Positions 3,763 to 6,151 of a DNA stretch of 6,382 nt are shown in pieces. The notes beneath the pieces are model-generated. The model searched no databases. It was not told where the DNA came from and worked only from the letters and a program-made list of their open reading frames with translations. This DNA comes from an uncultured Collinsella sp. (GTDB lineage Bacteria; Actinomycetota; Coriobacteriia; Coriobacteriales; Coriobacteriaceae), in contig USHT01000068.1 in assembly GCA_900554455.1 (NCBI GenBank), positions 1 through 6,382 on the forward strand, in the 5' to 3' direction. The position numbers were made by a program, and so were the translations under genes. Position 1 is the stretch's first letter, and the number at the start of each line of letters is the position of its first letter.

Positions 3763-5814
3763 ATGCAGGAGGCATGGGAAGGCTTCAAGGAAGGCATCTG
3801 GACGGGAGAGGTTGACGTCCGAGACTTCATCCAGAAGAACTACACCCCCTACGAGGGCGACGAGTCGTTCCTCGCCGGCCCGACCGAGCGTACCAAGGAG
3901 CTGTGGGGCGAGGTTCTCGACCTGCTGCTTAAGGAGCGCGAGCAGGGCGGTGTCCTCGATATGGACACCAAGACCGTCACGGGTATCGTGAGCCACCCCG
4001 CTGGCTACATCGATAACGCCCACCGCGAGAAGGAGACCATCGTCGGTCTCCAGACCGACAAGCCGCTCAAGCGCGCGCTGCACGTCAACGGCGGTATCCG
4101 CATCGCTTGCCAGGCTGCCAGCCAGCACGGCTATAAGGTCGACGAGAACGTTGTCGAGCGCTACACCTTCGAGCGCAAGACCCACAACGCCGGCGTCTTC
4201 GATGTCTACACCCCCGAGATGCGTGCTTGCCGTTCGGCCCACATCATCACCGGTCTGCCCGATGGCTATGGCCGCGGCCGCATCATCGGCGACTACCGTC
4301 GTGTTGCCCTGTACGGCGTCGACTACCTGATCAAGGACAAGGAGGCCCAGAAGGCTTCCACCCCGACGGTCATGACCGCCGACAACATCCGCGATCGTGA
4401 GGAGCTGCAGGAGCAGATCCGCGCCCTCGGCGAGCTCAAGATGATGGCCGAGACCTATGGTTTCGACATTTCCAACCCTGCTACCAACACGCAGGAGGCC
4501 ATCCAGTGGATGTACTTCGCCTACCTTGCTGCCGTCAAGGAGCAGAACGGCGCTGCCATGTCCATCGGCCGTACCTCTACGTTCATCGACATCTACGCTG
4601 AGCGCGACCTTGCCAACGGCACCTTCACCGAGGAGCAGATCCAGGAGTTCGTGGATCACTTCATCATGAAGCTCCGCATGGTCAAGTTTGCCCGTACCCC
4701 CGAGTACCAGGCCCTGTTCACCGGCGATCCGCAGTGGGTCACCGAGTCCATCGGCGGCATGGGCGTTGACGGCCGTACGCTCGTTACCAAGATGAGCTAC
4801 CGCTACCTGCACACGCTCGAGAACATGGGCACCAGCCCCGAGCCCAACATGACCGTTCTGTGGTCGACCCGTCTGCCCGAGAACTTCAAGAAGTTCTGCG
4901 CCAAGACTTCTGTCGCCAGCTCTTCGATCCAGTACGAGAACGACGACCTCATGCGCGTTTACCACGGCGACGACTACGGCATCGCCTGCTGCGTGTCCTC
5001 CATGCGCATCGGCAAGGAGATGCAGTTCTTCGGCGCACGCGCCAACCTGGCCAAGTGCCTGCTGTACGCACTCAACGGCGGTGTTGACGAGGTCTCCAAG
5101 AAGCAGGTCGGCCCCAAGTATCGCGCCGTCGAGGGCGATACGCTCGATTACGACGACGTTGTGGCCAAGTACAACGACATGATGAAGTGGCTCGCTGGCG
5201 TGTACGTCAACTCGCTGAACATCATTCACTACATGCACGACAAGTATTGCTACGAGCGCATCCAGATGGCTCTGCACGACAAGCACGTGCACCGCTGGTT
5301 CGCTACGGGCATCGCTGGCCTTTCCGTCGTGGCTGACTCCCTGTCCGCCATCAAGTACGCCAAGGTCCACCCCGTCCGTGATGAGAACGGCATCATCGTC
5401 GACTTCGAGACCGAGGGCGAGTTCCCCAAGTACGGTAACGACGACGACCGCGTCGACCAGATCGCTCACGACGTTGTGCACCAGTTCATGGAGTACATCC
5501 GCATGAACGACACCTACCGCAACTCCGTGCCCACGACCTCGGTTCTGACCATTACCTCCAACGTCGTGTACGGTAAGAAGACCGGTTCCACGCCTGACGG
5601 CCGCAAGGCTGGCCAGCCGTTCGCCCCGGGTGCTAACCCCATGCACAAGCGCGATAGCCACGGTGCCATCGCTTCGCTGTCTTCGGTTTCCAAGCTCCCG
5701 TTCCGCGATGCTCAGGACGGCATCTCCAACACCTTCTCCATCATCCCGGGTGCGCTCGGCAAGGAGGACCAGGTGTTCTTTGGCGATATCGACCTTGATC
5801 AGCTGGGCGAGTAA
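3763..5814 (+). CDS. pflB: Pyruvate formate-lyase catalytic subunit lacking the glycyl radical domain
   Basis: This cytoplasmic protein converts pyruvate and CoA to acetyl-CoA and formate in anaerobic fermentation. It aligns by eye with E. coli PflB from RDFIQKNYTPYEGDESF near the N-terminus through GRGRIIGDYRRVALYG, ESIGGMGVDGRTLVTK, SIQYENDDLMR, NIIHYMHDKY and TSNVVYGKKTG to FSIIPGALGKEDQV. The catalytic pair Cys409-Cys410 (in IACCVSSM), Trp325 and Arg426 (FFGARANL) match E. coli Cys418/419, Trp333 and Arg435. It stops at 683 residues, against 760 in E. coli, just where the C-terminal glycyl radical domain should begin; that domain is the next gene. ATG 3763 is the only plausible start: an in-frame TAG lies at 3745, and TAGGAG (3745-3750) precedes it by 12 bases. 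Nearly exclusive AAG, GAG and C/G-ending codons suggest high expression. No activating enzyme is in the window. The large subunit alone should be inactive. Confidence 0.96.
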   Translation: MQEAWEGFKEGIWTGEVDVRDFIQKNYTPYEGDESFLAGPTERTKELWGEVLDLLLKEREQGGVLDMDTKTVTGIVSHPAGYIDNAHREKETIVGLQTDKPLKRALHVNGGIRIACQAASQHGYKVDENVVERYTFERKTHNAGVFDVYTPEMRACRSAHIITGLPDGYGRGRIIGDYRRVALYGVDYLIKDKEAQKASTPTVMTADNIRDREELQEQIRALGELKMMAETYGFDISNPATNTQEAIQWMYFAYLAAVKEQNGAAMSIGRTSTFIDIYAERDLANGTFTEEQIQEFVDHFIMKLRMVKFARTPEYQALFTGDPQWVTESIGGMGVDGRTLVTKMSYRYLHTLENMGTSPEPNMTVLWSTRLPENFKKFCAKTSVASSSIQYENDDLMRVYHGDDYGIACCVSSMRIGKEMQFFGARANLAKCLLYALNGGVDEVSKKQVGPKYRAVEGDTLDYDDVVAKYNDMMKWLAGVYVNSLNIIHYMHDKYCYERIQMALHDKHVHRWFATGIAGLSVVADSLSAIKYAKVHPVRDENGIIVDFETEGEFPKYGNDDDRVDQIAHDVVHQFMEYIRMNDTYRNSVPTTSVLTITSNVVYGKKTGSTPDGRKAGQPFAPGANPMHKRDSHGAIASLSSVSKLPFRDAQDGISNTFSIIPGALGKEDQVFFGDIDLDQLGE

Positions 5815-5815
5815 C

Positions 5816-5840
5816 TATTGTTAGTGCTATACTAACAATA
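5816..5840. repeat. Perfect palindrome between pflB and the radical-domain gene
   Basis: TATTGTTAGT (5816-5825) and ACTAACAATA (5831-5840) are perfect 10-base inverted arms around GCTAT. The element starts one base after the pflB stop codon. It is AT-rich with no following T-run, so it is not a typical terminator. Its centre contains TATACT, a -10-like hexamer without a good -35. It may be an RNA hairpin setting mRNA stability or subunit ratio, or a DNA operator. Confidence 0.6.
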
Positions 5841-5856
5841 ACGATTACTGATTAGC

Positions 5857-5876
5857 GCGCCGGTTTCGGCCGGCGC
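5857..5876 (+). repeat. GC-rich intercistronic hairpin
   Basis: GCGCCGG (5857-5863) pairs with CCGGCGC (5870-5876) around TTTCGG. It ends ten bases before the AAGGAGA Shine-Dalgarno of the radical-domain gene. No T-tract follows, so a role in RNA processing, stability or translation initiation fits better than termination. Confidence 0.5.
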
Positions 5877-5899
5877 CTATCGATCGAAGGAGACACATT

Positions 5900-6151
5900 A
5901 TGAAGGTTTCTGAAGTTTCCGAGACTCAGGCCGATAACCTGGTCCACATGCTCGACGCTTACGCCGAGAAGGGTGGCCACCACCTGAACATCAACGTCTT
6001 CAACCGTGAGACGCTGCTCGACGCTCAGGCTCACCCCGAGAAGTACCCGCAGCTGACCATCCGCGTTTCCGGCTATGCCGTGAACTTCCACACGCTCACC
6101 AAGGAGCAGCAGGACGAGGTCATTGCGCGTACCTTCCACAACAAGTTCTAA
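5900..6151 (+). CDS. grcA: Stand-alone glycyl radical domain, second subunit of pyruvate formate-lyase (GrcA-like)
   Basis: This 83-residue protein corresponds to the C-terminal glycyl radical domain of PflB. GGHHLNINVFNRETLLDA (25-42), PEKYPQLTIRVSGYAVNF (46-63) and the LTKEQQDEVIARTF tail match the last part of E. coli PflB almost position for position. Gly58 in RVSGYA (bases 6071-6073) corresponds to radical Gly734, which PFL-activating enzyme oxidises to the stored radical. The start is well supported by AAGGAGA (5887-5893) six bases upstream. The N-terminal 24 residues stand in for the linker and are a few residues shorter than the E. coli segment. E. coli GrcA is longer (about 127 residues) and accompanies a complete PFL; here the neighbouring PFL has no radical domain, so this protein probably completes it in trans. 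Codon use matches pflB. It is in a different reading frame, 85 bases after the pflB stop, likely in the same transcript. Confidence 0.95.
   Translation: MKVSEVSETQADNLVHMLDAYAEKGGHHLNINVFNRETLLDAQAHPEKYPQLTIRVSGYAVNFHTLTKEQQDEVIARTFHNKF

Follow-up and report, generated by a model that had tools for sequence, protein, structure and literature searches.

Pyruvate formate-lyase (PFL), the textbook example of a glycyl radical enzyme, is one of the sources of formate in many anaerobes of the gut. PFL-family enzymes normally hold a cysteine pair and the radical glycine on one chain, as in PflB of Escherichia coli (PDB entries 1h16 and 2pfl), a single polypeptide of 760 residues. Small proteins with a stand-alone glycyl radical domain also exist, and two of them, E. 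coli YfiD (GrcA) and Y06I of phage T4, reportedly act as spare parts for PFL cleaved by oxygen. Here, we analysed a 6,382-nt stretch of DNA from an uncultured Collinsella sp. (assembly GCA_900554455.1, contig USHT01000068.1; hereafter the window), in which the same cysteine pair and the same glycine loop as in PflB lie on two chains encoded by neighbouring genes, the cut falling between the body of the barrel and the last-strand helix. With a probability of roughly 86%, the two products are the pieces of one PFL, predicted to form a working assembly in which the radical subunit would be exchangeable. The parts of this reading differ in strength: the existence of a split PFL is near certain, its activity very likely, and the exchange of its small subunit plausible.

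A pyruvate formate-lyase encoded by two genes

The two open reading frames (ORFs) lie on the same strand in different frames, 85 nt apart (Table 1), and jointly span E. coli PFL, with the cut at residue ~680. The larger product, the core, aligns with PflB over 665 residues at 64% identity, the alignment ending at E. coli residue 680; that of the small protein begins at residue 679 and has 47 of 72 positions identical. Cys409 and Cys410, which a preliminary description of this DNA had picked out in the large protein, align with E. coli Cys418 and Cys419, and Gly58 of the small protein aligns with Gly734. The same description had noted an 83-residue ORF in another frame, with its own start, a Shine–Dalgarno (SD) sequence and an RVSGYA motif, and all of these are present, AAGGAG being located 7 nt upstream of the ATG. 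Its statement that the core ends right after GALGKEDQV needs correcting, as the chain runs on for 12 residues beyond the last one aligned with E. coli (FFGDIDLDQLGE).

The profile matches are likewise shared out between the two proteins. The core matches PF02901 at 717.5 bits and the Gly_radical profile (PF01228) over positions 1–51 only, and the small protein matches that profile over the remaining positions 50–105. While the core exceeds the cut-off of the PFL equivalog TIGR01255 (1084.8 vs 994.2 bits), the glycyl radical loop expected of a PFL on the same chain was not found in it and is present in the pair taken jointly. The small protein exceeds the cut-off of NF038360, the GrcA3 family (164.3 vs 158 bits), and stays below those of TIGR04365 and NF008341, i.e. 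GrcA and GrcA2 (97.2 of 170 and 100.7 of 145 bits, respectively).

In the small protein, a helix, the last strand of the barrel, the glycyl radical loop and a C-terminal helix follow one another, and the cut leaves these four elements together as a single unit, whose best solved fold match is YfiD. A natural fusion of the two halves (locus L071) was predicted with a predicted local distance difference test score (pLDDT) of 87.5 and matches E. coli PFL along its whole length with a template modelling (TM) score of 0.96. Because residues 26–31 of the lone small protein are predicted without structure (pLDDT below 50), and the equivalent stretch of the L071 fusion is a strand (686–691), the models suggest that this strand likely forms on docking.

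By analogy with PFL generally, the PFL-activating enzyme would generate the radical on Gly58 of the small protein, which would dock and complete the barrel of the core with its last strand and the radical loop, and the radical would then move from Gly58 to the cysteine pair of the core. Binding of the two halves would be enabled by the helix on the small protein and a matched interface. Because the link to the core is non-covalent, a small subunit cleaved by oxygen could be swapped for a fresh one, supplied by the operon, by a second gene or by a virus. The oxygen-sensitive radical would in that case likely be carried on a separate, replaceable subunit. As the preliminary description proposed, the split might also make activation easier and let activity be tuned through the proportion of the two subunits.

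The tails of the cores vary. A cysteine follows LGK in the tail of 31 of 79 related cores and is missing from that of the window, and Cys-rich tails such as DCACCEP or GCCED are seen in L003, L004, L006–L008, L011, L012, L014 and others. Such tails may represent a metal site, a redox switch or a docking tag.

Distribution of the split and PFL complement of the genomes

For comparison, we used the best 80 of 585 confirmed genome loci, ranked by core likeness, a choice that favours split genes. Among them, 76 are split, one is fused (L071) and three end at contig ends; a PFL made by two genes, one of them encoding a separate protein for the radical glycine, as first described for the window, is thus borne out by the complementary ORFs and recurs in these 76 loci. 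The spacing of the two genes varies between −17 and 982 nt, with a median of 240, relative frames 1, 2 and 0 occur in 31, 23 and 22 of the split loci, respectively, and an SD-like stretch precedes the small gene in 74 of the 76. By a crude motif test, an ORF of pflA size with a radical S-adenosylmethionine motif lies behind the small gene in 58 of them; 16, including L001, have none, and two leave no room for it.

A single broken gene, whether through a recent frameshift, an error of assembly or programmed frameshifting that yields a fused protein, would also leave the small gene directly behind the core in another frame. This explanation retains next to no credibility, since the split is found in 76 of the 80 closest loci, from three phyla, in all three frames and with an SD sequence of its own, and since gaps ranging from overlap to 982 nt, together with small genes that occur alone, away from a core, refute it. 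Recoding or frameshifting to a fused product was rejected on the gap lengths and frames; with all three frames, these gaps and SD-like stretches at 74 of 76 loci, the PFL is encoded by two separate genes.

This two-gene form is found in Collinsella and other anaerobes, in more than 200 sampled genomes. In Coriobacteriia (the class of G001, the representative genome described below), a short-frame small gene occurs in 89 of 296 genomes, a fused PFL (56–64% identity) in 29 and both in one, among the matches listed, which extend down to 58.4 bits, the lowest fused match scoring 76.6 bits. The corresponding numbers among the matches listed for Lachnospiraceae (the family of Blautia, G007), down to 89.8 bits, are 96 split, 36 fused and one with both among 250 genomes, fused PFLs scoring below that value lying outside the count and three ambiguous frames (178, 395 and 407 residues) being excluded. 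Both tallies use short-frame and PFL-type fused rows, with lower-scoring rows excluded. In Erysipelotrichales (the order of Massilimicrobiota, G316), 42 of 148 genomes carry the small gene, as counted by eye from 47 rows, with four genomes having more than one; frames of 410 and 144 residues, the second being a shorter match next to a fused one, were excluded from the split count. Spirochaetes (the phylum of G009) have the split in one of 198 genomes, most of their matches being fused, and three frames (442, 349 and 343 residues) were again excluded. At the level of class, order and family, these samples are named after the named locus that stands behind each genome handle. The split frames are 68–100% identical to the small protein of the window and the fused ones at most 71%, Lachnospiraceae fusions excepted.

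The core of the window is 100% identical to that of Collinsella aerofaciens strain MCC370 (locus L001 in genome G001). This genome encodes a single PF02901 protein, and its three PF01228 matches are the core, the small protein and one NrdD, the anaerobic ribonucleotide reductase; the split pair is therefore the only PFL found in G001. The check for a full-length PFL, suggested at the outset, accordingly returned none by PF02901 search in this representative genome. One PFL-activating enzyme exceeds the TIGR02493 cut-off (284.3 bits), encoded on the same contig and strand as the small gene, ~7.4 kb further downstream (C34:3530–4228), and all eight genomes tested have at least one such enzyme above the cut-off. 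Among the matches listed, 88 of the 89 split Coriobacteriia genomes are likewise without a fused PFL, and the radical subunit, which had been called obligatory, would by inference be so in these genomes.

The NCBIfam name of the small protein, autonomous glycyl radical cofactor GrcA3, fits another explanation, in which it is a YfiD/GrcA-type spare for a full-length PFL encoded elsewhere and the core is a truncated remnant. Given that no full-length PFL was found in G001 or, among the matches listed, in these 88 genomes, and that the core scores above the PFL cut-off of TIGR01255, we regard this as improbable.

Evolutionary history: the split and probable re-fusions

In a maximum-likelihood tree built from 76 rows of the catalytic core, the bacterial split rows belong to one clade of 60 rows with a Shimodaira–Hasegawa-like approximate likelihood ratio (SH-aLRT) support of 99. 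This tree omitted 27 split rows, and L147–L150 were untrimmed at the core end. The split clade contains seven fused rows in two places, and a 100-row tree, for which L151 and L152 gave no row, agrees. Forcing all fused rows into a single clade was rejected (approximately unbiased test, p-AU 0.0016). We read the nested fused genes as re-fusions, in one or two events, since a single clade of the seven was not rejected (p-AU 0.61).

The residue after Asp-Ala in the radical domain supports the re-fusion reading of the tree: it is Gln in all 77 small ORFs of the split type at the 80 loci and in all seven nested fused proteins, and Met or Ile in all eight other fused ones. The best 120 homologues have Gln in 115 cases and Met in one, four being without the motif. 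In the L134 fusion, the two halves are joined by a Cys-rich stretch resembling the tails of split cores, a visible scar of the fusion, and the other six have the old, short spacing.

Fused relatives, taken in the preliminary description as a sign of a recent disruption if found at this locus, do occur in both Coriobacteriia and Lachnospiraceae. A recent disruption in Collinsella is nevertheless not indicated, because the fused forms lie either outside the split clade, as do the six fused PFLs of Coriobacteriia placed in the tree, or inside it as later fusions, as do other fused forms, from Lachnospiraceae.

Second copies, viruses and a possible exchange of the small subunit

Two small genes were found in 15 of the 96 split Lachnospiraceae genomes among the matches listed, each of which has one core at E ≤ 1e-100. 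The copies are 77–96% identical in 14 of these genomes; the remaining one, G415, is counted among the 15 and was left out of the compared pairs, its second small gene lying at a contig end (L168, 95–337), where a core may be missing. Because the second copies are not grouped in a copy tree of 81 columns, which is too weak for most forks, duplication of the small gene may have happened repeatedly. Of eight neighbourhoods of second copies scanned, three adjoin the spoIIIA operon (L153–L155) and two a Crp-family regulator (L157, L164). As the assemblies are fragmented, contamination might explain single two-copy cases, hardly all of them. A second small ORF in Olsenella phocaeensis (L025), which has an undetermined residue nearby, was rejected as a possible assembly repeat and is not among the 15.

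Small genes are also carried by viruses. Nineteen IMG/VR viral contigs have one, in two of which (L185, L186) the match is confined to the shared domain, as with spare parts of the T4 type. Twelve viral records were searched whole, and nine are without a core and three with one, although records may be fragments. In L083 (4965–10279) and L091, a PFL core comes after the small gene, and nrdD and nrdG are present as well. Because the three in-frame TGA codons of the core coincide with Trp positions, the virus likely reads TGA as Trp. The third record with a core, L081, has neighbours (PriA and part of a riboflavin transporter) that look bacterial. Of 50,697 records of annotated phages, 1,538 have a match to the small protein, which spans at least 80% of it in only 34, and several of the matches listed bear the annotation glycyl radical cofactor or pyruvate formate-lyase. 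Thirty-five annotated-phage records matching the core were not used, several being short, unannotated and likely bacterial contamination; OR849994.1, OR845000.1 and similar unannotated ‘phage’ records, which have adjacent matches to both PFL pieces, are likely of this kind.

NrdD and NrdG matches accompany the small gene within the fetched stretch in 9 of the 19 viral contigs, as would be expected if the small protein served NrdD instead of PFL. We consider this highly improbable: the best matches of the small protein are PFL, YfiD and GrcA3, the bacterial small gene adjoins a PFL core, natural fusions join it to PFL, and the one viral NrdD scanned against Pfam (L085) has a Gly_radical match of its own. 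In another viral contig, NrdD matches fall in two ORFs that meet near residue 400 (L090:2514–5016), which may reflect an intron, an intein or a two-piece NrdD. A split or spare NrdD in Ruminococcus bicirculans was rejected, as its 752-residue NrdD has its own CGYTG near the end; the same species has a 96-residue ORF with only the end signature of NrdD (RITGYLVGTLDRFNDAK; L193:601–891), more than 1 Mb from the nrdD genes found.

A real two-subunit PFL could also keep its small subunit bound for life, never exchanging it, in which case the split would set expression or reflect neutral drift. A single small gene is the usual case in the split genomes sampled (81 of the 96 from Lachnospiraceae, among the matches listed), the hairpins between the genes of the window would suit a role in expression, and the split appears dispensable, since the lineages read as re-fusions have undone it. 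Repeated second copies without a second core, however, make little sense without replacement, and virus-borne small genes with no core in the record (9 of 12) are equally hard to explain, so that an enzyme that never exchanges its subunit is credible and yet rather unlikely. The claim that the subunit is exchangeable accordingly has support at the genomic level, where two small genes per core and virus-borne small genes speak for it.

Some bacterial NrdD enzymes use formate as reductant. Because formate could serve the virus-carried NrdD in this way, a virus might gain from sustaining the PFL of its host. Taking these observations together, we tentatively propose, at somewhat less than even odds, a radical-cartridge enzyme, in which, across several lineages of gut anaerobes, a disposable radical subunit of ~80 residues would snap into a radical-free core. 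Spares would be kept in the genome, some beside Crp-family regulators, viruses would bring their own so that formate from the host core feeds the viral NrdD, and oxygen damage would be mended by swapping the subunit instead of making the whole enzyme anew.

Several observations weigh against the view that the pair forms one working PFL with an exchangeable radical subunit. The lone small protein is predicted at moderate confidence (pLDDT 76, predicted TM score 0.51). According to PMC8683613, E. coli PFL cut at residue 695 shows undetectable YfiD binding and 32-fold lower activation, with wild-type activity once activated; therefore, a cut near this site need not work unless the interface is adapted. 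In the tree, long fused branches flank the virus-linked split pair L081/L083, which is not part of the main split clade; its position is unsure, and the tree would allow a possible second split event. The absence of a fused PFL was checked in the genomes of relatives, partly among the matches listed. Finally, G178 and G403 each carry a split and a fused PFL, so the split form is not always the sole PFL; these two genomes would be suited to comparing both forms within one cell.

Other features of the window

The coordinates of both genes and of the elements between and within them are collected in Table 1.

Table 1. Features of the two-gene PFL locus in the 6,382-nt window.
Feature	Position	Strand	Basis
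PFL core subunit gene, 683 aa	3763..5814	+	PF02901, TIGR01255, PDB 38lb and 1h16 matches
Cys409-Cys410 codons (E. coli Cys418/Cys419)	4987..4992	+	sequence, alignment
Core C-terminal extension beyond last E. coli-aligned residue	5776..5814	+	alignment
Intergenic stretch of 85 nt, two RNA hairpins predicted (5816-5840, 5842-5886)	5815..5899	+	folding prediction
Shine–Dalgarno-like AAGGAG of small gene	5887..5892	+	sequence
Radical subunit gene, 83 aa, NCBIfam GrcA3	5900..6151	+	PF01228, NF038360, structure prediction
Gly58 codon within RVSGYA (E. coli Gly734)	6071..6073	+	sequence, alignment

Positions 5812–5905 are predicted to fold at −32.2 kcal/mol (z −4.8) into two strong hairpins, which are kept in close relatives, other sampled loci having different ones (one of 32 loci yielded no pair). 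No intergenic match to Rfam scored above the gathering thresholds. A conserved RNA element between the genes was rejected, since the hairpins differ across loci and Rfam gives no match; they are a local feature only and may set the ratio of the two subunits.

Upstream of the core, ~470 nt (3295–3762) contain a terminator-like hairpin at 3333–3366 and gave no Rfam match. Three terminator-like sites were found in the region against 2.6 expected, and the stretch may hold regulatory sites. Further upstream, at 1417–3294, profile matches identify a short-chain dehydrogenase/reductase (SDR) and a KdgT-family permease, perhaps a sugar-acid operon. On the minus strand, a 375-residue ORF (2–1126) carries a Walker-type GPSKAGKS motif and, from this motif only, would be akin to RepA-like helicases of mobile elements.

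Implications and comparison with known systems

If PFL in many gut anaerobes consists of a core and a detachable radical subunit, then its activation, its loss to oxygen and its repair need rethinking, and the exit of the radical domain from the barrel and its return could be studied with the two proteins purified separately. Annotation is affected as well, with cores resembling truncated PFLs and small genes being named as spare parts, and so is structural work, a core having been solved alone, without its radical half.

Both pieces have in fact been named or solved already, the small protein in NCBIfam (GrcA3) and a split-type core in the PDB (38lb). No literature on a split PFL or on GrcA3, including in connection with Collinsella, was found among the titles listed in a search whose coverage leaves out most subscription journals, which is no proof of absence. 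The PDB entry 38lb, entitled ‘Formate acetyltransferase’, has a native length of 718 residues plus 21 leading ones and no glycine loop. This chain (P0121) is 80–83% identical to the three best of the cores at the 80 loci, all from Olsenella/Atopobiaceae, and groups with the Olsenella cores; in the closest sampled genome, G249 (90%), the small gene lies behind the core. Its tail, DCACAADAS, is Cys-rich like that of many split cores. A second entry of the same title, 38la, ends at LGKE, 14 residues before the end of the window's core, and falls outside the split clade; it may be a natural short core or a cut construct. In the PDB set searched, no chain resembling the small subunit was found beyond PFL, YfiD and other glycyl radical enzymes. 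Physiologically, PMC12208373 reports that formate secretion by Atopobium (Fannyhessea) vaginae, a species not named among the split-PFL carriers here, drops by ~90% with 1 mM hypophosphite, a PFL inhibitor.

Among solved structures, the small protein of the window most resembles YfiD, matching the fold of its nuclear magnetic resonance structure (6owr) with 71% identity over 58 columns. YfiD, as described in PMC8683613, mends damaged full-length PFL, and its N-terminal half is disordered. The Collinsella protein, in contrast, has no full-length partner that we could find and itself brings the helix corresponding to E. coli residues ~681–694. It passes NF038360 (type: exception), as do four of seven other small proteins, the other three, virus-borne, falling just short at 150.9–157.1 bits, and the name of that family files it as an autonomous cofactor. 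Our comparisons argue instead that the GrcA3-type protein is a subunit of a split PFL. The engineered counterpart is E. coli tPFL (residues 1–695) complemented by YfiD, in which, according to the same paper, PFL was cut nearby and supplied with a small radical protein; the natural cut lies ~15 residues earlier, and a working interface would be required if the enzyme is active. Set beside these systems, the split PFL is a real and common two-subunit form of a known enzyme.

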